A stretch of 48,188 nt of DNA from a virus. The notes beneath the pieces were generated by a model. It ran no database searches, was not told where the DNA came from, and saw nothing but the letters and a program-made list of their open reading frames with translations. Positions 2,665-35,416 of the stretch are shown here, one piece after another (the stretch's first letter is position 1; each line of letters starts with the position of its first letter). Both the position numbers and the translations under genes were made by a program. Where the stretch lies: the IMG/VR virus record IMGVR_UViG_3300020347_000007, positions 1 to 48,188 of that record. The stretch is one strand, 5' to 3'.

Positions 2665-3992
2665 TGAGTAATGAAGGACACCATCCATCATATGTAGGAA
2701 CTACTAGAGTATTTGTTGAATCTCCTAGATATGGACTATCTGAGATATCACTTATTACTTTGCAAGTTTCTTTATTTGAAAACATTTCCTTGCCCTATAT
2801 TACTGCACAGCTAGTAATTATTGATTCTGCTAACGCATCTAATGCTGTGCACTTTCAGGGACAAGAAAGAGTTGTCATTGTCGTAATTGACAAAGATGAA
2901 AATATAATCTTTAATAAAGAATTTGTCTGTATGGGTATTGAATACGGACAGAAATTAGGTGACGACAAATCAGGATTTATTGTAAAACTTATTGAAGAAC
3001 ATGCTATGCTTAGTAATAGTACTAGGTTCAGTAAAGTATATGAAGGTAAACCTGACCAGATTTGCCAAACTGTTTGTCAGGAACAATTAGGTGTGGATGT
3101 TACACCAGAAGGAAGTGTAACACAGAGTGAAATGAGAGTAGTATTTCCATTCACTATATCACCATTAGAAGCAGCAAACTGGATGGTATCTAGGTGTTCT
3201 ACTGATGAAGGAATGCCATTTTTATTCTATTCTACTTTGTCTGAAGATACATTACAATTAAAAGATGTAAAGACTTTGTTGAATCAAGATGCGTTTAACA
3301 ATAACGACCCTTATATTTTTGCACGAACAAGTAGCACTAGTCCGGGTGGTGCTGAAGATGCAGCAATCCTAAAAAAGAAAATTGTAAACTACAGTATTCC
3401 TAACAATGAAGATACCTTGTTTGCAATGGTAAAAAATGTATATGGTGGGTATTATAACTTTATTGATACATATGAATTTGGTGGTCAAGAAGTTAAGTAT
3501 GATTTTACAAAACCATTTGGAGCATTACCTAACAAGAATGGTTCTACCAAATACAACTATGATCCAGACTTTACAATAGGTAGAGCTTTCCATGAAGGGC
3601 AGAATACCTATACAAGTCAAGTTGCTACTAGAAAACTTTTTGATGACATGTATTCATTCCTAGAAGAAGAAGATGTTGATATGCATCTTAAGAAAGCAGA
3701 ATCAAGAGGTATCTATAACTTTATGGATCAGCAACCTATTAACTTTGCTGTAAATGGAATTGATTTAGGGTTTGATAAACTCGGTAAATGTGTGGATGTT
3801 TATATTACCAAAGATATTCCAGCAGAAGAAAAAGTATCACCAGAGCAGATGAAAGATAAGAAACGTTCTGGAACATATTTAATTCAAAAAGTCATGTATA
3901 CTATCTTTGATAATAGATTGACATCAACTGTGACAGCAACCAAAACTAGTACTAATAGTAATCTTGGTGGCGAAAAGGTTAACTTGGTATGA
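2664..3992 (+). CDS. Baseplate hub subunit (gp27-like)
   Basis: A 442-residue protein placed between gp53 and the gp5 OB-fold protein, where a hub subunit is expected. The N-terminal region (about 25-150) is a beta-rich domain with a VFVESPRYGLSEISL start and an ERVVIVVIDKDENIIF strand pair, like the tube-like domains of gp27. The middle contains FPFTISPLEAANWMVSRCS, a type of motif seen in phage hub proteins. T4 gp27 is 391 residues, forms a trimer and carries gp5. Similarity to gp27 is inferred from size, position and domain style. Its last codons overlap the next start by ATGA, suggesting coupled expression with its likely partner gp5. Confidence 0.6.
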   Translation: MSNEGHHPSYVGTTRVFVESPRYGLSEISLITLQVSLFENISLPYITAQLVIIDSANASNAVHFQGQERVVIVVIDKDENIIFNKEFVCMGIEYGQKLGDDKSGFIVKLIEEHAMLSNSTRFSKVYEGKPDQICQTVCQEQLGVDVTPEGSVTQSEMRVVFPFTISPLEAANWMVSRCSTDEGMPFLFYSTLSEDTLQLKDVKTLLNQDAFNNNDPYIFARTSSTSPGGAEDAAILKKKIVNYSIPNNEDTLFAMVKNVYGGYYNFIDTYEFGGQEVKYDFTKPFGALPNKNGSTKYNYDPDFTIGRAFHEGQNTYTSQVATRKLFDDMYSFLEEEDVDMHLKKAESRGIYNFMDQQPINFAVNGIDLGFDKLGKCVDVYITKDIPAEEKVSPEQMKDKKRSGTYLIQKVMYTIFDNRLTSTVTATKTSTNSNLGGEKVNLV

Positions 3993-27278: not shown

Positions 27279-27614
27279 ATGGCTGACCTAAACGTATTTC
27301 GTTCTATTACACATTCTGTCCAAGATAGTTCTACAGTTGCTTACACGGCACCTGAAGGGTATACAGGCATTATTCTATCTACTCAGATAGCAAATGCATC
27401 TGATACTGCATACTGGCTTAGTCTAACTATTCAGGATTCAGCAGCTGCTCCTGCAAATGAGTTGCTATCACAATTTGATATTCCGGGGAGAGATGCTGTA
27501 GCTGCTACTACTGGTAAAACAGTTGTAACTACTGGTCAAATTCTAAAAATGCAATCTTCTGGGCAAAATAAACTTAAAGCTACTATCGGAATTTTGGAGT
27601 CGCTAAATGGCTAA
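27279..27614 (+). CDS. Small conserved virion-associated protein
   Basis: 111 residues, mostly beta-strand (VAYTAPEGYTGIILSTQIAN, YWLSLTIQDS, TTGQILKMQSSGQNKLKATI). The pattern suggests a small beta-sandwich that might cap or link fibres. TAAGGAAAAACA precedes the ATG and the 3' end overlaps the next fibre by 8 bases. I do not know its function. Confidence 0.6.
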   Translation: MADLNVFRSITHSVQDSSTVAYTAPEGYTGIILSTQIANASDTAYWLSLTIQDSAAAPANELLSQFDIPGRDAVAATTGKTVVTTGQILKMQSSGQNKLKATIGILESLNG

Positions 27615-30354
27615 CTTAATAAGTAAAAAAGTAAAGAGTTCAAAATTACCCGATACTTTTTTTAGATTAGAAGACGTAGAACCTAGCCTTGGACTGCCCA
27701 ACGATAGTAACTCTATTATTGTATCGGTTACCAATGGCGACAGAACTTTTTATAAGTTAGACAGTGGGTTTAATTTCTACAACGATTCTGGTGCAAGAAG
27801 AATCGGTATAGACCTAAATCAATTTGGCATTGCTGATTTAAATAATGTAGATGATTCTGATGGACTTGGCAACACCATTGATGGTGGTAAACTGCTGGTG
27901 TTTAGTGCGGCAAGAAATGCATTTGTTCCAAGTGTAGGGGGTGTATCTCTTGACTCTAACGATGCTGTTACTCTTAACGGTGAAGGTCCACTATACTACC
28001 TTGATGCTAGAAATCATAATCATAATCAAATTGTATTCGACTCTAATTTTGGAGTAAGAGCTAGTAGCGATTCTGTTACTTTTAATACAAATCAATTCAA
28101 TGTAAATAATAACATTAGTCTCAATTCTGTTGTTATTGGTGATTCATTGACTGTAGCTACTCTTATAAGAACATCTGGTAATGTTATTGCAAATGGTGGA
28201 TTTGTAGGAACATCAGTCGGCATTGACGGTTATGGTAGTTTTACTGGAAATGTAATAGCGTCAACTTTTACTGGTGATGGTTCTGGCCTAACAAACTTAA
28301 CAGCAGATAGCGCAGTATTTGCAGACTTAGCTACTGATTTAGAAAGTGCTGGTTTTAATACACTATTCTCTGATAAAACTACTACAGAACTTACAGAAGG
28401 TTCTAACCTTTACTATACTGAATCTAGAGCAGACTCAAATATCACTAGATTTGCTACGGTAAATGATTTACAGTTCTCAGATAACCGCAAAGTAACTTTC
28501 GGTAATGATAGTGACCTTAAGATTTTCCATAACGGATCATCTAATGTGTATCAAGGTTCTTCTCATGTATTCCGTAATACTCACGGTAATGATGTAATCA
28601 CAGTTGATAGTGACCATGCAGTTCTTAAATACAATGGTAGTTCAAAACTTACTGTAGTAGACTCTGGTGTTGAAGTAACAGGAAACATTTCTGCAACCAA
28701 TATGAGTTTGACTGGTAACTTAACAATTACTGGCACAACTACTACTGTAAATACTACAACACTCCAAGTGTCTGATCCACTTATTCAGTTTGCAGTAGGA
28801 AATGAAGCATCTGATATTGTAGACATTGGTTTCTTTGGGCATTACTCCCCTGATGCTGGATCAACTAGAGAGCATACAGGTTTCTTTAGAGATGCTAACA
28901 ATGGACAATACTACCTCTTTGGTAAATATCAAAGCACAGCACTAGACTCTGTAGTTCCTGCTACAACTGTAGACAGAACAGATGCTACATTTGGTCTTGC
29001 TGGACTTAACATCCAAGAATTGACAGCAGACTCTGCTACAATCAGTGGTCCAATTAAATTCTCTAACGTATATTCTACGGAAGGTGCTTTACCAAGTGCA
29101 GCAACATATCATGGTATGTTTGCCCATGTCCATGCAACAGGTAAAGGTTACTTTGCGCATGGTGGTCAGTGGCATAAACTTCTGGATGAAACTTCTAGCA
29201 CAACAGACAATCTGCCAGAAGGCTCTACCAACTTCTATCATTCAGATGCAAGAGCAAGAAGTTCTGTAACTGCTTCTAATACTACAGGATTTGGTGGTCT
29301 CTCCTATGATAGTTCTACTGGTATTTTCTTCCTTACTAGAGTAGATTCAGATGATGTTCTTTCAGTTTACTCTGCTGGTAACAACATCACAATCTCTCCA
29401 ACGGGTGTTATTCAGGCATCTGGTGCACCACAGGCGGACAATGCAGCATTGCTGGATAGTTTAGATGCACTACAATTCTTAAGAAGTGATGTAGATGATG
29501 TTGTAGACTCTGGCGTACAACTCACATTTAAAGGTTCAGCAAAACTAGCATTTGGTGACTCTACTGGGCCCGCACACTTCCAATATAAGAGTGCTACTGG
29601 TAGAGTAAGATGGACTGGTGGTCTTGTAGATAACTTCAATGCTGACATGGTTGACAGTGTTCAAGCTTCCCAATTACTGAGAAGTGATGTAACAAGCAGA
29701 AAAACTGCTGGTCAGTTAATTATGAATGACAATGCTCAGTTAATTTTGGGTACAGACTCCGACTTATTAATGTATCATAATGGTGGTGCTGCTGTATTCA
29801 GAAATAATACTGGCGACTTCCATCTTCAGACAGGTGGGTTCTTAGTTAAGAACGTTACTGGCACTGAAACAATGATTGATGCAGAACCAAACTCTTTTGT
29901 AAAACTCTATTATGATAATGCTCCTAAACTTACTACACAAACAAATGGTGTTAAAGTAACAGGAACACTTGAAGTAACAGATAAAGTCAAGTTTGTAAAT
30001 GGGGCTAACACAACTGAAGTATCTCCTACAGGAGTTTCAATTACATCTAATGCTCTGGCAGTAGTTGATACTTTTACTGCTGGAACTGGTAATGCTTCAA
30101 CAGTAAAATATGACGTTAGAATTCATGATGCAAGCACAACACCTGATGAGACACAAATCAGTACTGTATTAGTAGCCTTTAATGGTGAATCTGATGTAGG
30201 ATTTACTGAATTTGGTGTTGTCCATACTGGTGATAGTGATATGGGTTTCCTGACAGCGGACGTTATTGGGAGTGGTCAAATTAGACTTCTCTTCGAAAGA
30301 CGTAATGGCAGAGGCACTTTGGAAGTGAAAACAAATAAAACAATTATTAGCTAA
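27607..30354 (+). CDS. Long tail fibre protein
   Basis: 915 residues of repetitive beta-rich fibre. Recognisable blocks are TGDGSGLTNLTADSAVFADL; the motif LTEGSNLYYTESRADSNI near residue 262 and LPEGSTNFYHSDARARSS near 536; TGNLTITGTTTTVNTTTLQV, the common trimeric fibre insert; and LPSAATYHGMFAHVHATGKG at about 495, shared with the 12628 gene. The C-terminal 110 residues form a different, compact domain (VAFNGESDVGFTEFGVVHTG, IRLLFERRNGRG), probably the tip. No chaperone domain was identified. It would recognise or reach the host surface. Confidence 0.7.
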   Translation: MANLISKKVKSSKLPDTFFRLEDVEPSLGLPNDSNSIIVSVTNGDRTFYKLDSGFNFYNDSGARRIGIDLNQFGIADLNNVDDSDGLGNTIDGGKLLVFSAARNAFVPSVGGVSLDSNDAVTLNGEGPLYYLDARNHNHNQIVFDSNFGVRASSDSVTFNTNQFNVNNNISLNSVVIGDSLTVATLIRTSGNVIANGGFVGTSVGIDGYGSFTGNVIASTFTGDGSGLTNLTADSAVFADLATDLESAGFNTLFSDKTTTELTEGSNLYYTESRADSNITRFATVNDLQFSDNRKVTFGNDSDLKIFHNGSSNVYQGSSHVFRNTHGNDVITVDSDHAVLKYNGSSKLTVVDSGVEVTGNISATNMSLTGNLTITGTTTTVNTTTLQVSDPLIQFAVGNEASDIVDIGFFGHYSPDAGSTREHTGFFRDANNGQYYLFGKYQSTALDSVVPATTVDRTDATFGLAGLNIQELTADSATISGPIKFSNVYSTEGALPSAATYHGMFAHVHATGKGYFAHGGQWHKLLDETSSTTDNLPEGSTNFYHSDARARSSVTASNTTGFGGLSYDSSTGIFFLTRVDSDDVLSVYSAGNNITISPTGVIQASGAPQADNAALLDSLDALQFLRSDVDDVVDSGVQLTFKGSAKLAFGDSTGPAHFQYKSATGRVRWTGGLVDNFNADMVDSVQASQLLRSDVTSRKTAGQLIMNDNAQLILGTDSDLLMYHNGGAAVFRNNTGDFHLQTGGFLVKNVTGTETMIDAEPNSFVKLYYDNAPKLTTQTNGVKVTGTLEVTDKVKFVNGANTTEVSPTGVSITSNALAVVDTFTAGTGNASTVKYDVRIHDASTTPDETQISTVLVAFNGESDVGFTEFGVVHTGDSDMGFLTADVIGSGQIRLLFERRNGRGTLEVKTNKTIIS

Positions 30355-30369
30355 TAGGATATAGATTAA

Positions 30370-33300
30370 ATGGCTGATTCTGCTAAAGATTTTGTAGTAA
30401 AACAGAACCTAAGAGTTACTGGTAATATCGTCTCTGCTGGTGCAGGGTCGGTATTTACTGGTGATGGTGCGCAACTAGACAATATTGATGCTATCACTCT
30501 TGATGGGCAAAATGGTAGTTACTATCGAGATGCTGATAACCTTAATGCTGGCACAGTTAACAACTTAAGACTTCCTGCCACCATTACCAAAAACCTTAGT
30601 GGTAATGTAACAGGTAATGTTGATGCTACAGGTGGTTCTGGAACAGTAGATGCAGACTCAGGTAGGTTCACAACTATCTCTGGCACTACAGCTTCATTTA
30701 ATTCCTATACTGGTGTATATGGTAACTTTGATACATTTGATGAAGTCTTTGATAGTTCCTTGACTAGAAAGACTACTGATAATGTCACTGAAGGATCAAC
30801 AAACCTTTACTACACTAGTAATAGATTTGATAGTAACTTTGGAACAAAAACTACCACAGACATTGGTGAAGGCACTAACCTCTACTACACTGATGGTAGA
30901 GTTGCCACTAAAATTACAGGAACAGTCAACAAAACATTTGTAGATGCATTAAACATTAACGCTGATCAAGTTGACGGTGTAGAAGCATCTGCCTTAGTAA
31001 GAAATGATCAAGACGGCACCATTGGTGCTAACATCCAATTCACTGACGGTAATGAGTTAAGAATTGGTACTGGTAACGATACCATTATTAAGCATACTGG
31101 AACACAAACTACAGTAGACCATACTGGAACTGGGAACTTAATCTTCAAAGCTGATGGAGAAGATAGATTAACTATTGAAGACGATAAGACAACTGTTTCG
31201 GGTAAACTTCACACTGATAGTGTAACTTCTACTGCTCTAATTGAAGGTTTTGATGTTCGTGTAGATAACATGCTTGATATCTATGAATCTGCTACTGGTA
31301 AAATTGCTGGACACTTGGAAGGCACTGGTGCTGAAGGTTTACAAATCCACTACCACTCTCAGAAACCTACTGAGGGATTGAAGATTATTGCACATGATAG
31401 TGATGAAGAGCTCGGCACTACTCAAGTAAAATTTACGTTTAGTGATGGTATTTCTTTTGAAAACCAGCAACTTAAGTTAGTAGCAGACCCAACTTCTGCA
31501 CAAGATGTTGCAACAAAAGCATATGTAGATAATACATCTCAAGGTCTGGTAGTTAAAGATGGTGTAAAGGCAGCAACTACTGTTGATCTTGCTAGTGTTG
31601 GTGGTATTGGCACAGTTACATATAACAACACTGCTGGTCCTGACTCTGCTGTAGGGTCTGGATTTAGTTTTACAGGTGTATTGAACGCACTTGACGGACA
31701 TACCTTTACCACTAATGATAGATTGCTTGTTAAAGACCAGACAAACACCTTTGAGAACGGCATTTACAAGTGGGTTAATAACACTACCCTGACAAGAGCA
31801 TTAGATGCTGACCAAGACAGTGAACTTGGTGGTGGTGTATTCGTATTTGTTGAGAATGGAACTGTTAACGCAAGTAACGGATATGTCACCTCTCACTCTG
31901 GTCTGACTGATGTAGGCACAGATGCTATTCTCTGGACACAGTTCTCTGGTGCTGGATTTATTGAAGCTGGTGATGCTCTGGTAAAAACTGGTAACGTAAT
32001 TGATCTAAACCTTTCTGATGGTGCTGGTGGCACATCTGGATTGAAAGTAGAAACTGATCAACTCAAGATTAACTTGGGCGCAGGTGGAACAGGTTTAGAG
32101 ATTTCCTCTAACGTTCTTCAAGTTTCTGCTGATGGTATTAAAGAAAGTATGATTGACTTTGGCACAGGTGCCAATCAAGTCAGCACAGATGATGTTACAG
32201 AGGGATCGACAAAGCTCTATCATACAACTGCAAGAGCAAGAGGTGCTTTAAATGCTGGTGCAGGGCTTAGTTATAATTCTACAAGTGGTGTAGTGTCTAT
32301 CACTAATACTTTAGGTGCCAACGTAGGTGCTTTTGGTAGTTCAACTAGAATTCCAGTTGTCACTGTTACAGCAGAAGGATTGATTGATAGTATTGGAACA
32401 GCAGCAGTTGCTGGTGTAGACAGTGTAGGGTTTGATTCTAGCACTGGTGTTATTGAGGTAATACTTGGAGATGGTAGTATAAAGACTGCACCAATTGTAT
32501 TAGATGCGTTTACTACAGCAAATCTTGCTGAGAATACTACTGAGTATACTCATCTTTACTACACTAAAGGACGGGTCGATTCTGACATTGATTTGAGAGT
32601 TGATAGTGCCTTTGTATCACCATTTGCTAGAGCAGCAATTAGTGTCACTGGTGATGGTGTATCCTATGAGCAGGGTACAGGTGTAATCACTATTCAGACC
32701 TTAACCAACTCATTTAATGTAACACAGTCCAATCACGGATTGAGAGAAGGTCAGGCAGTTTATGAAGATGATGTTGCAGGATGGGTAAAAGCATTTGCTA
32801 CAGATTCTGGTCATCAACTTGCGTCTCATGTTGTAGTAGACTTTGTAGACTCTGATACATTTGGAATTGCACAGAACGGTATCTTTACCCTTGGTGAAAC
32901 TGGTAATGTAAGTCCTGCATTGGCATTATCAGCAGGAGAATACTACTATACAGGTAATGTAGACTCTGGTATTCCAATGTCTGTTCAGCCGGGAACTTCT
33001 GTTCAACCTCTATTCTATGCATTGTCTAGCACTCAAATTGAACTTAATGTAGAACATGCAATTAACGTATTCTCTCCTGATGAACCTATCAATGTAAGTA
33101 GAACAACTGGCAACTTTACTGTTAGTGGCAATCTTAAGGTTGAAGGATTAGGTGTTCCAAGAGTTACAACATTGTCTAGTGGTGATACCTACTCATTTGA
33201 TAGTGGTAACGTTGCAAAGATTGAATTCAATGCAGATGCGTCTTTGGTCTTTGATAGTCCGGGAACAACATATGATGGTGCTGGATTTACTATCCTTGCC

Positions 33301-33489
33301 AAGAACACTCATGGTTCTAATGATTACAGATTAACCCTGACAACTCCAAACGGTGTAAGACTTAACACAGTAAACGAGAATAAGTTAAATGTAAATGCTG
33401 GTAAGTTTGCAATTGTTAGTGGTATTATCTACGGTGAGAAAGATATTATCTTAACCTCTACTCAAACTGATAGTGCAATCACAGGATAA
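30370..33489 (+). CDS. Long tail fibre protein
   Basis: 1039 residues. The N-terminus (VVKQNLRVTGNIVSAG) and several (D/E)GSTNLYYTxxR motifs (about residues 140, 166 and 610, with a weaker copy near 725) are shared with the neighbouring fibres. A block at about 385-530 (QDVATKAYVDN, VVKDGVKAATTVDLASVGG, NDRLLVKDQTNTFENGIYKW) is a well-known phage fibre domain. The last 160 residues are beta-rich and likely form the distal tip (YSFDSGNVAKIEFNADASLV). It is the second long fibre in the unit and may pair with the first as proximal and distal halves. Confidence 0.7.
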   Translation: MADSAKDFVVKQNLRVTGNIVSAGAGSVFTGDGAQLDNIDAITLDGQNGSYYRDADNLNAGTVNNLRLPATITKNLSGNVTGNVDATGGSGTVDADSGRFTTISGTTASFNSYTGVYGNFDTFDEVFDSSLTRKTTDNVTEGSTNLYYTSNRFDSNFGTKTTTDIGEGTNLYYTDGRVATKITGTVNKTFVDALNINADQVDGVEASALVRNDQDGTIGANIQFTDGNELRIGTGNDTIIKHTGTQTTVDHTGTGNLIFKADGEDRLTIEDDKTTVSGKLHTDSVTSTALIEGFDVRVDNMLDIYESATGKIAGHLEGTGAEGLQIHYHSQKPTEGLKIIAHDSDEELGTTQVKFTFSDGISFENQQLKLVADPTSAQDVATKAYVDNTSQGLVVKDGVKAATTVDLASVGGIGTVTYNNTAGPDSAVGSGFSFTGVLNALDGHTFTTNDRLLVKDQTNTFENGIYKWVNNTTLTRALDADQDSELGGGVFVFVENGTVNASNGYVTSHSGLTDVGTDAILWTQFSGAGFIEAGDALVKTGNVIDLNLSDGAGGTSGLKVETDQLKINLGAGGTGLEISSNVLQVSADGIKESMIDFGTGANQVSTDDVTEGSTKLYHTTARARGALNAGAGLSYNSTSGVVSITNTLGANVGAFGSSTRIPVVTVTAEGLIDSIGTAAVAGVDSVGFDSSTGVIEVILGDGSIKTAPIVLDAFTTANLAENTTEYTHLYYTKGRVDSDIDLRVDSAFVSPFARAAISVTGDGVSYEQGTGVITIQTLTNSFNVTQSNHGLREGQAVYEDDVAGWVKAFATDSGHQLASHVVVDFVDSDTFGIAQNGIFTLGETGNVSPALALSAGEYYYTGNVDSGIPMSVQPGTSVQPLFYALSSTQIELNVEHAINVFSPDEPINVSRTTGNFTVSGNLKVEGLGVPRVTTLSSGDTYSFDSGNVAKIEFNADASLVFDSPGTTYDGAGFTILAKNTHGSNDYRLTLTTPNGVRLNTVNENKLNVNAGKFAIVSGIIYGEKDIILTSTQTDSAITG

Positions 33490-33495
33490 CTAAGA

Positions 33496-34908
33496 ATGAC
33501 AATTAGTCTTATTGGCACACCGCCGGGTATTATAGGAAATATTAGTAATAAAAGATTATTACACTTTTTCTTATTTGGCGGTGGTGGAGCCGGAGCTGGT
33601 AATGGTGGATTTGCAGGTGGAAATGGTGCTGCACTTGCCTTTAGTGCGTATCTAGAAAAAGAAGATGTTCTCTACATGTATAACGGCACTGGTGGAACTG
33701 CTGGTGGAACTTCTGATGCTGCTATTGGTGGTGGAGGTGGTGGAGCATGCTTCATTTATGCTGATGTTAGAAAAACTAGATTAGGTTCTAATCCAAATGG
33801 ATATGGCGTTAATAGCAATCTTCTTCTTGCTGCGGCCGGTGGTGGAGGAGGTGGCGGCACTGATACCAATGCTTATGGTGGTAATGCAGGACTAGTAAAT
33901 ACTTCTACAGGTGCAACTCTTAATGCTTCAACTGGTGGTGGAACAAATCCCGGAACTGGTGGAACAGCAACTGGACCCGGAACTGGTGGAATACAGGACT
34001 TTGGCTTTGGCGTTATCTTTCCTGCTGATAATGGATCAAGCATTCCTCTAGGGGGAGTATCTTCTCAAGTTACAACATATAATATAACAACAACTGCACC
34101 ATCATCTAGTTACTATACACTTAGTGGAACTGATAGAAATGGTTCTGTTAGTGGTAACAACGCAGGAGTAGGTTTATATGTTGGTGATACAATTAATTTC
34201 AATCTAAGTAGTGTATCAGGTAGTCACCCATTCTATATTAGAGTATCAAGTGGTGGTAGTAACGTATCAACTCCAGCTGCTACTGGACAAGGCTCTACAG
34301 GAAACGCAACAGTATCATGGACCCCATCTGCCGCAGGGACATATTATTATCAGTGTGGTAATCACGGTAGCATGATAGGAACAATTACAGTATCAGCTGC
34401 ACTTGGTGGTAGTGGTGCTGGTGGAAAAGGGTATGTTAACGGCACCATAAACAGTGGTGGTGGTAATACAGGTGATGATGAAGCAAATGTAGTTGGAAGT
34501 AACTCTTTAGATCATGGTCATGGGCGTGACGGATATCAACAAGGTGGCGCTGGTGGCGGTGGTGGATACTATGGAGGTGGTGGTTCTAGTGTTGATGGTG
34601 GAGGGACTGTTGTTGCTGGTGGAGGTGGTGGTTCTTCCTTTATGCTAAATGCTATGCAATACTGTGGAGGCCATAATATATTATCTTCGGGATCGCCGGG
34701 TGATTTTTCTGAAACTACTATTAACGGATTTAATTTAACATCTCTGTCAAGCATTCCTACAAACGTAGGTAATGGTGGTGCTGGTGCTAGTTCAGGTGTT
34801 GTTGGTAGTAACGGGCAAGGTGGATACATTGTTATATTAGATACAAATGGCAATATTGCAGCACAGACTACTGGGGCCACATCAGGCTGGAAATATACGG
34901 TAGTATAG
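33496..34908 (+). CDS. Glycine-rich adhesin with embedded cupredoxin domain
   Basis: 470 residues. Residues 20-180 and 310-450 are glycine-rich with runs such as LFGGGGAGAGNGGFAGG, the style of polyglycine-sandwich adhesins (for example S16-type gp38). Between them, about 200-305, lies a blue-copper-like domain: YVGDTINFNL, then SGSHPFYIR with His244, and YYQCGNHGSMIGTI with Cys287, His290 and Met293. The C-x2-H-x2-M spacing is that of amicyanin, and the four type-1 copper ligands are all present. Copper binding is inferred from this pattern only. The neighbours are fibres, so the protein is probably an adhesin whose cupredoxin fold may be used for binding rather than electron transfer. Confidence 0.7.
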   Translation: MTISLIGTPPGIIGNISNKRLLHFFLFGGGGAGAGNGGFAGGNGAALAFSAYLEKEDVLYMYNGTGGTAGGTSDAAIGGGGGGACFIYADVRKTRLGSNPNGYGVNSNLLLAAAGGGGGGGTDTNAYGGNAGLVNTSTGATLNASTGGGTNPGTGGTATGPGTGGIQDFGFGVIFPADNGSSIPLGGVSSQVTTYNITTTAPSSSYYTLSGTDRNGSVSGNNAGVGLYVGDTINFNLSSVSGSHPFYIRVSSGGSNVSTPAATGQGSTGNATVSWTPSAAGTYYYQCGNHGSMIGTITVSAALGGSGAGGKGYVNGTINSGGGNTGDDEANVVGSNSLDHGHGRDGYQQGGAGGGGGYYGGGGSSVDGGGTVVAGGGGGSSFMLNAMQYCGGHNILSSGSPGDFSETTINGFNLTSLSSIPTNVGNGGAGASSGVVGSNGQGGYIVILDTNGNIAAQTTGATSGWKYTVV

Positions 34909-34918
34909 GAGATTATAA

Positions 34919-35164
34919 ATGGCTAGAAAATCTACAAAACCCGTAAAAAGTGTAGGATTTAAACTGAGTTCTGGTGATGATATTAGAGAAGGAACAGATA
35001 ATAAATTTTATGCAAGGTTTAGAACAGAAAGTGATATTGCTGGTTATATAGATTCTGACTACATTAGACAATTTCCAAATTTAGATGCGGATACTTTTGG
35101 TGGTGATGCGCCAGAGAATATTAGAATTAACATGTATGATTCTCTTGGAACGGACTTAAGGTAA
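34919..35164 (+). CDS. Mini-fibre protein A (tandem paralogue)
   Basis: 81 residues beginning MARKS. It contains a single copy of the fibre motif DIREGTDNKFYARFRTESD, followed by IDSDYIRQFPNLDAD. The next gene has the same length, start and motif order, so the two are tandem paralogues. A TAGGAG ribosome site lies upstream. Too small to be a fibre alone; it may be a connector or assembly factor. Confidence 0.6.
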   Translation: MARKSTKPVKSVGFKLSSGDDIREGTDNKFYARFRTESDIAGYIDSDYIRQFPNLDADTFGGDAPENIRINMYDSLGTDLR

Positions 35165-35170
35165 AAAAAC

Positions 35171-35416
35171 ATGGCTAGAAAATCGGGAAACCCTAGACAA
35201 AACGCAAGTAAAAAAATTGATAGCACTAATGACTTACCAGAAGGTGCCACAAATTTATATTACACTAAAGCAAGGTCTCATACAAAAGTAGATGAGACAG
35301 TTGATGCTACTTACCTTCAAAATCTATCAAACTTAGATGCTGACCTAATAAGCGAAAAACCCCCGCAATACTACAGAAGAATTATTGAAGATAAAAATGG
35401 GACTAGGATAAACTAA
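35171..35416 (+). CDS. Mini-fibre protein B (tandem paralogue)
   Basis: 81 residues, also beginning MARKS, with DLPEGATNLYYTKARSHTK and a YLQNLSNLDAD segment matching protein A in position. The C-terminal 20 residues differ (YYRRIIEDKNGTRIN). It overlaps the next gene by the A of TAATG. Confidence 0.6.
   Translation: MARKSGNPRQNASKKIDSTNDLPEGATNLYYTKARSHTKVDETVDATYLQNLSNLDADLISEKPPQYYRRIIEDKNGTRIN

Follow-up and report, generated by a model that had tools for sequence, protein, structure and literature searches.

A predicted type-1 copper domain behaves as an exchangeable cassette in tail-associated proteins of marine T4-like phages

Introduction

Why should a gene in the tail block of a phage encode a domain with the ligand set of a blue-copper protein? 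This question is raised by a 470-aa open reading frame (ORF) in a 48,188-nucleotide stretch of viral DNA (IMG/VR record IMGVR_UViG_3300020347_000007, positions 1 to 48,188; hereafter, the window), for which the original prediction had proposed a cupredoxin embedded in a glycine-rich phage adhesin. Glycine-rich fibre tips are known as receptor binders, as in gp24 of Pam3 (PMC9608196), and metal in phage fibres is known in the form of iron-binding HxH motifs (PMC11705849). In the open-access literature that we searched by titles, we found nothing linking a cupredoxin or blue copper to phage virions. In the current study, we asked what this domain is, which other proteins carry it, and what it might do on a phage particle.

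Results

The window derives from a divergent T4-like phage, whose gp6 has its best match, at 34% identity, in Phage C48C1 (Kyanoviridae). The ORF, which opens with an ATG at 33496 and closes with a stop codon at 34906-34908 (Table 1), is flanked by fibre-like genes and, just downstream, by the neck genes gp13-gp15; baseplate, fibre, and neck genes are nearby. As originally predicted, the domain sits between two glycine-rich stretches (28 and 31% glycine, against 15% inside the domain). The companion claim, that the protein is a glycine-rich phage adhesin, stands in part: the label comes from gene context, and the tail-fibre gene block makes it plausible, but the flanks match no known adhesin family in Pfam or among PDB sequences, and the N-terminal flank has no match among annotated phages. 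A TNF-like/ALK-type glycine-rich domain made up by the two flanks, into a distal loop of which the cupredoxin would be inserted, is no more than a guess, as it found no support in PDB sequences, in annotated phages, or in PF12810 (ALK/LTK-type glycine-rich), which the window protein does not match at an E value of ≤10. Because a full-length AF2 model is confident for the cupredoxin alone (with pLDDT values mostly below 50 in the flanks), this model does not place the domain on a fibre tip.

Two other features of this region deserve mention. The HxH motif of the C-terminal flank (DHGHGRD; HxH at 34513-34521) is kept in two related contigs (L007 and L088), and further HxH motifs occur in the fibre-like ORFs at 27607-30354 (two) and 30370-33489 (one); in T4 gp37 fibres, motifs of this kind are iron-binding. 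Downstream, the EGxTNLYYT-like repeat of the fibre-like ORF at 30370-33489 recurs in two 81-aa ORFs (34919-35416), which look like stand-alone fibre-repeat pieces.

Table 1. Layout of the cupredoxin-bearing ORF, in window coordinates
Feature	Position	Strand	Remark
470-aa ORF, glycine-rich virion protein (putative adhesin) with inserted cupredoxin domain	33496..34908	+	
N-terminal glycine-rich flank, aa 1-190, 28% Gly	33496..34065	+	AF2 pLDDT mostly <50
Mobile cassette, 349 bp of DNA with 84% identity to the GC519 gene of P-HM1	34072..34420	+	
Cupredoxin domain, aa 194-303, 8-9 beta strands	34075..34404	+	AF2, Foldseek, profile vs PDB
His244, predicted Cu ligand 1, H-P-F motif	34225..34227	+	
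Cys287, predicted Cu ligand 2, end of penultimate strand	34354..34356	+	
His290, predicted Cu ligand 3	34363..34365	+	
Met293, predicted axial Cu ligand	34372..34374	+	
C-terminal glycine-rich flank, aa 312-470, ~31% Gly, HxH at aa 340-342	34429..34905	+	

The residues and spacing named in the original prediction (H244, C287, H290, and M293, in the arrangement C-x2-H-x2-M) were confirmed; the loop reads CGNHGSM, with the spacing seen in amicyanin. A search of the window in all six frames found the pattern H-x(25-60)-C-x2-H-x2-M a single time. When the six-frame ORFs of the window and of the fetched loci are taken together (445,348 aa), 183 occurrences fall inside domain matches and 8 outside, and two of these eight resemble further diverged cupredoxins (YYYCGNHRYM in the L006 ORF at 5238 and YFHCAYHRYM in the L123 ORF at 1738). 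On these counts, the pattern in the window ORF is more than chance.

The identification as a cupredoxin with a full ligand set drew support from profile searches, structure prediction, and homologue conservation. AF2 modelling of aa 191-311, using a 60-row alignment (with four rows from annotated phage records left out), gave a pLDDT of 94 and a pTM of 0.87. In the model, His244 precedes one strand, Cys287 closes the penultimate strand, and the loop that leads into the last strand holds His290 and Met293; this strand order, together with the alignment to plastocyanin, would be compatible with four ligands that lie close together in space. Foldseek matched the model to rusticyanin, plastocyanin, amicyanin, and the cupredoxin domain of NirK in the PDB (probability of 1.00, E values of 3e-5 to 6e-4, TM to target of up to 0.63). 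A profile of 60 copies likewise found plastocyanins, copper nitrite reductase, rusticyanin, and amicyanin at E values of 8e-8 to 1e-3, the plastocyanin matches (about 1e-6) aligning the columns of the His and of the C-H-M loop, and even a single-sequence search of the PDB recovered Prochlorothrix plastocyanin (E value of 0.002). The Copper-bind family (PF00127) is not matched by the window protein itself in a Pfam scan, and 21 of the 60 copies match it at an E value below 0.01 (best, 2e-5). The sole Pfam match of the window protein is PF23616 (Ig_GEX2_N), which falls below the cut-off (E values of 0.055 for the full length and 0.005 for the domain) and which we rejected in favor of a cupredoxin, the reading on which ligands, profile, and fold concur. 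From the sequence, the profile alignment, and the strand order, we infer a complete type-1 site.

Homologues were expected, on the original prediction, to keep the four ligands, and the full set (H, C, H, and M) is present in 171 of the 185 distinct copies that cover the four positions; as these copies share kinship, they do not amount to 185 independent tests. Ten more copies keep H, C, and H with the axial Met replaced by Q, L, or T. Eight of the ten have Gln and read C-H-x-H-T-G-Q; axial Gln, as in stellacyanin, is a known type-1 copper substitution. Taken by column, His244 is His in 184 of 187 distinct copies, Cys287 is Cys in 181 of 185, His290 is His in 181 of 184, and Met293 is Met in 171 of 185 and Gln in 8. 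The His244 column uses both CAC and CAT, and both His codons and both Cys codons are found at the ligand positions, so that the residues persist through silent change. Some of the search patterns used for viral contigs included the ligand loop, whereas those of the genome-contig scan were ligand free, and cellular copies found by the latter that are complete at the loop retain the ligands there; a second copy in one Prochlorococcus genome (L120) has Thr at the axial position. Three degenerate tandem copies (L022 and L069) have lost all four ligands jointly, and one L069 copy retains the first His only. These tandem copies stand behind an intact one in subtilase-like proteins (L022, ORF at 3437; L069, ORF at 3416). 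In addition, long GC519-type proteins from eight loci (L025, L026, L027, L051, L052, L056, L058, and L060) have a third, stellacyanin-like copy with axial Gln (C-x2-H-x2-Q) near aa 1390-1528.

It might be argued that the phage uses the fold simply as a stable spacer, a beta-sandwich comparable to the Ig-like domains of phages, in which the ligands are an inherited relic. The modular spread of the domain over many unrelated virion proteins, the persistence of a few ligand-less tandem copies, and a strain without the domain (described below) that was viable enough to be sampled would all suit such a role. However, the four ligand columns rank 2, 3, 4, and 8 of about 100 by conservation despite synonymous codon change, the axial changes are mostly copper compatible, and copies that lose the Cys usually lose the other ligands too. 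Of the candidate roles put forward in the original prediction (to sense, scavenge, or exploit copper, to bind a redox partner, or to serve as a scaffold), a pure scaffold is thus disfavored, and we regard it as unlikely. Less probable by far is that the site holds another metal (Zn, Cu(I), or Fe) or stays empty and serves folding only. Free copper is scarce in the reducing host cytoplasm, and copper-poor seawater could leave the site vacant; against this, Cys-His-His-Met/Gln on a cupredoxin fold is a type-1 copper signature, and the top profile and fold matches are copper proteins.

Relatives of the domain were found in 181 phage records, nearly all of them from Synechococcus or Prochlorococcus phages, including the cultured phages P-HM1, P-HM2, P-SSM2, and P-SSM4. 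The carrier proteins are diverse (gp9, S8/Ig, S74 spike, collagen-like/LamG-like, and glycine-rich), and several have a structural role by annotation. In P-SSM4 gp9, PF07880 lies at the N terminus and the cupredoxin at the C terminus, as in other gp9 proteins, and the P-SSM2 tail spike also carries the domain. The GC519 carriers of P-HM1 and P-HM2 combine an S8 subtilase (PF00082, E value of 6e-28) with weak Ig-like matches, and those of ACG-2014e are S8 protease proteins (PF00082, E value of 1e-21). Its presence in nonhomologous virion proteins indicates that the domain behaves, much as Ig-like domains do, as a promiscuous virion display domain. The two further diverged cupredoxins noted above (L006 and L123) appear to lie in the protein beside gp9 (GC399) in P-SSM4 and P-RSM4 and were missed by the profile.

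Fusion to S8 subtilase-domain proteins in other phages, and the fact that the type-1 sites of known cupredoxins are electron-transfer sites, bring to mind redox or copper chemistry, whether electron transfer, presentation of Cu for local oxidation, or shielding of the particle or a neighboring protease from copper or oxidants. We consider this very unlikely; the window protein has glycine-rich flanks in place of any redox partner domain, and no evident mechanism would supply electrons on a free virion.

Among cellular organisms, Prochlorococcus encodes a small, secreted-looking cupredoxin with a signal-peptide-like start (L099-L114), which is separate from plastocyanin and has strong matches in 12 of the 81 genomes sampled. 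Scanned members of this group, and of a group of Bacteroidetes relatives, exceed the PF00127 cut-off. Weak matches of 117 to 138 aa in Prochlorococcus genomes are distant from the domain and are probably petE. Prochlorococcus MIT 9201 has a copy inside a protein of about 2970 aa as well (L121). Two cupredoxin-subtilase genes from metagenome-assembled genomes labelled "Euryarchaeota" (L091) and "Gammaproteobacteria" (L092) resemble mis-binned phage contigs and were left out of the cellular counts. The secreted homologue raises the possibility of a "Trojan horse," in which tail copper would engage a copper-acquisition or secreted cupredoxin system of the host, in parallel to the proposed "Ferrojan horse" use of iron in T4-type fibres. 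We give this little credence, as most of the sampled Prochlorococcus genomes lack the homologue, no partner is known, and marine copper is scarce and strongly complexed. What speaks for it, beyond the homologue itself, is the reported iron binding by HxH motifs in phage fibres (PMC11705849), the window protein having such a motif at aa 340-342.

The 349-bp match to P-HM1 (Table 1) falls in the middle of the GC519 gene, and no further DNA similarity was found between the window and the compared P-HM1 stretch outside 34072-34420; the neck proteins of the two phages share 38-43% aa identity. The cassettes themselves differ with a dN of 0.10 and a dS of 0.52. DNA matches to other loci have sharp limits in common, close to the domain edges: they start within 34050-34076 in 79 of 81 cases and end within 34387-34423 in 71 of 81. 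In a domain tree, L007 (the 93% identical sister of the window's copy) stands beside P-HM1 with weak support, although this tree has few columns and can neither root nor date transfers. On sequence comparison, the domain is a mobile cassette of about 350 bp that moves among unrelated tail proteins of marine T4-like phages.

Same-gene flanks were found only in the IMG/VR contigs L007/L087/L089 (one contig), L088, and L090. The last two, from one metagenome, are 96 and 95% identical to the window in DNA over 4.9 and 5.1 kb, respectively. L088 reads ..GSNIPLGEADTSGAGGKGY.. in place of the entire cupredoxin of the window: it is the same gene, in frame, with the domain absent. Because fewer than 200 bases separate the upstream end of the L088 contig from the junction, an assembly error is a residual possibility; the junction nonetheless has its own sequence and preserves the frame. 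We are therefore inclined to think that the cassette can be gained or lost within one phage species. Given a sister strain without it, the domain is not essential to the protein.

Discussion

Our preferred explanation, which we hold with moderate confidence, is that the ORF encodes a tail-associated virion protein rich in glycine, most likely the tip of a host-contact fibre, that carries an exchangeable type-1 copper cassette. We infer display on the virion from gene position and from the gp9 and spike relatives, which are structural by annotation; copper occupancy and a role in host contact are presumptive. The cupredoxin would fold in the host cytoplasm and be displayed on the tail, and copper would be picked up there or after lysis via H244, C287, H290, and M293. 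The resulting copper-locked, rigid beta-sandwich could serve as an exchangeable surface module that adds to or tunes contact with the host envelope, with marine T4-like phages swapping the cassette between nonhomologous tail and baseplate genes. As the domain is dispensable and exchangeable, a host-contact or particle-surface trait fits better than a core function, and we regard it as an optional domain of the virion surface, with a predicted type-1 copper site, that probably tunes host contact. One bolder, and rather doubtful, proposal is that the type-1 sites on the tails of marine T4-like phages, carried by a horizontally exchanged cupredoxin cassette, are functional, and that the bound copper aids host recognition or attachment as a counterpart of the iron in T4-type fibres.

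What appears new here is a known fold used as a mobile virion module bearing a predicted metal site, a wider picture that is absent from the literature searched. The distribution of the domain suggests, at the level of sequence, that many marine T4-like phages carry predicted surface copper sites. If loaded, these sites would make copper-bearing particles of many cyanophages (a relative of the domain is present in 181 phage records), which would matter for host recognition in the ocean and for the amount of copper held in viral colloids. The locus also illustrates cleanly how one domain can travel as a DNA cassette among virion genes that are unrelated to each other, and the natural with/without pair at 95-96% DNA identity allows the role of the domain to be tested. 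Moreover, the domain is testable in culture, since it is carried by the cultured phages named above.

Among the closest known counterparts are the GC519 proteins of P-HM1, P-HM2, and MED4-213, whose cupredoxins are 67-86% identical to that of the window in aa sequence and whose gene lies immediately upstream of neck gp13, a position close to that of the window gene. However, they combine a subtilase with Ig repeats and are without glycine-rich flanks. The cyanophage gp9 baseplate wedge-fibre connector (phrog_677) has the domain at its C terminus, with the same ligands. The gp9-like protein of the window phage (12628-13698) matches phrog_677 at residues 1-289 of 412 only and is without the C-terminal cupredoxin found in many cyanophage gp9 proteins. 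As regards the flanks, the fibre tips Pam3 gp24 and S16 gp38 have long polyglycine motifs with -GGGGxGG- stretches (PMC9608196), a likeness at the level of composition; they differ from the window protein in having no sequence or family match to it, and a cupredoxin is not reported there.

Among cellular proteins, C-terminal domains of marine Bacteroidetes proteins (L093-L098) share 43-61% aa identity with the domain (by tblastn) and the same ligands. The secreted cupredoxin of Prochlorococcus also has the same ligands and is 39-44% identical over the domain (by tblastn), but its spacing is plastocyanin-like (C-x2-H-x4-M), and it is cellular rather than part of a virion. With plastocyanin and amicyanin (PF00127), the window domain shares the Greek-key beta-sandwich, the upstream His, the Cys that ends the penultimate strand, and the His and Met in the next loop, and with amicyanin also the C-x2-H-x2-M spacing; unlike either, it has H-P-F at the first ligand, the Pro and Phe following the His. 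The setting differs as well. Plastocyanin and amicyanin are soluble electron carriers, the latter the periplasmic acceptor of methylamine dehydrogenase, whereas the window domain sits inside a large putative virion protein, encoded by a 470-aa gene in a phage tail block.
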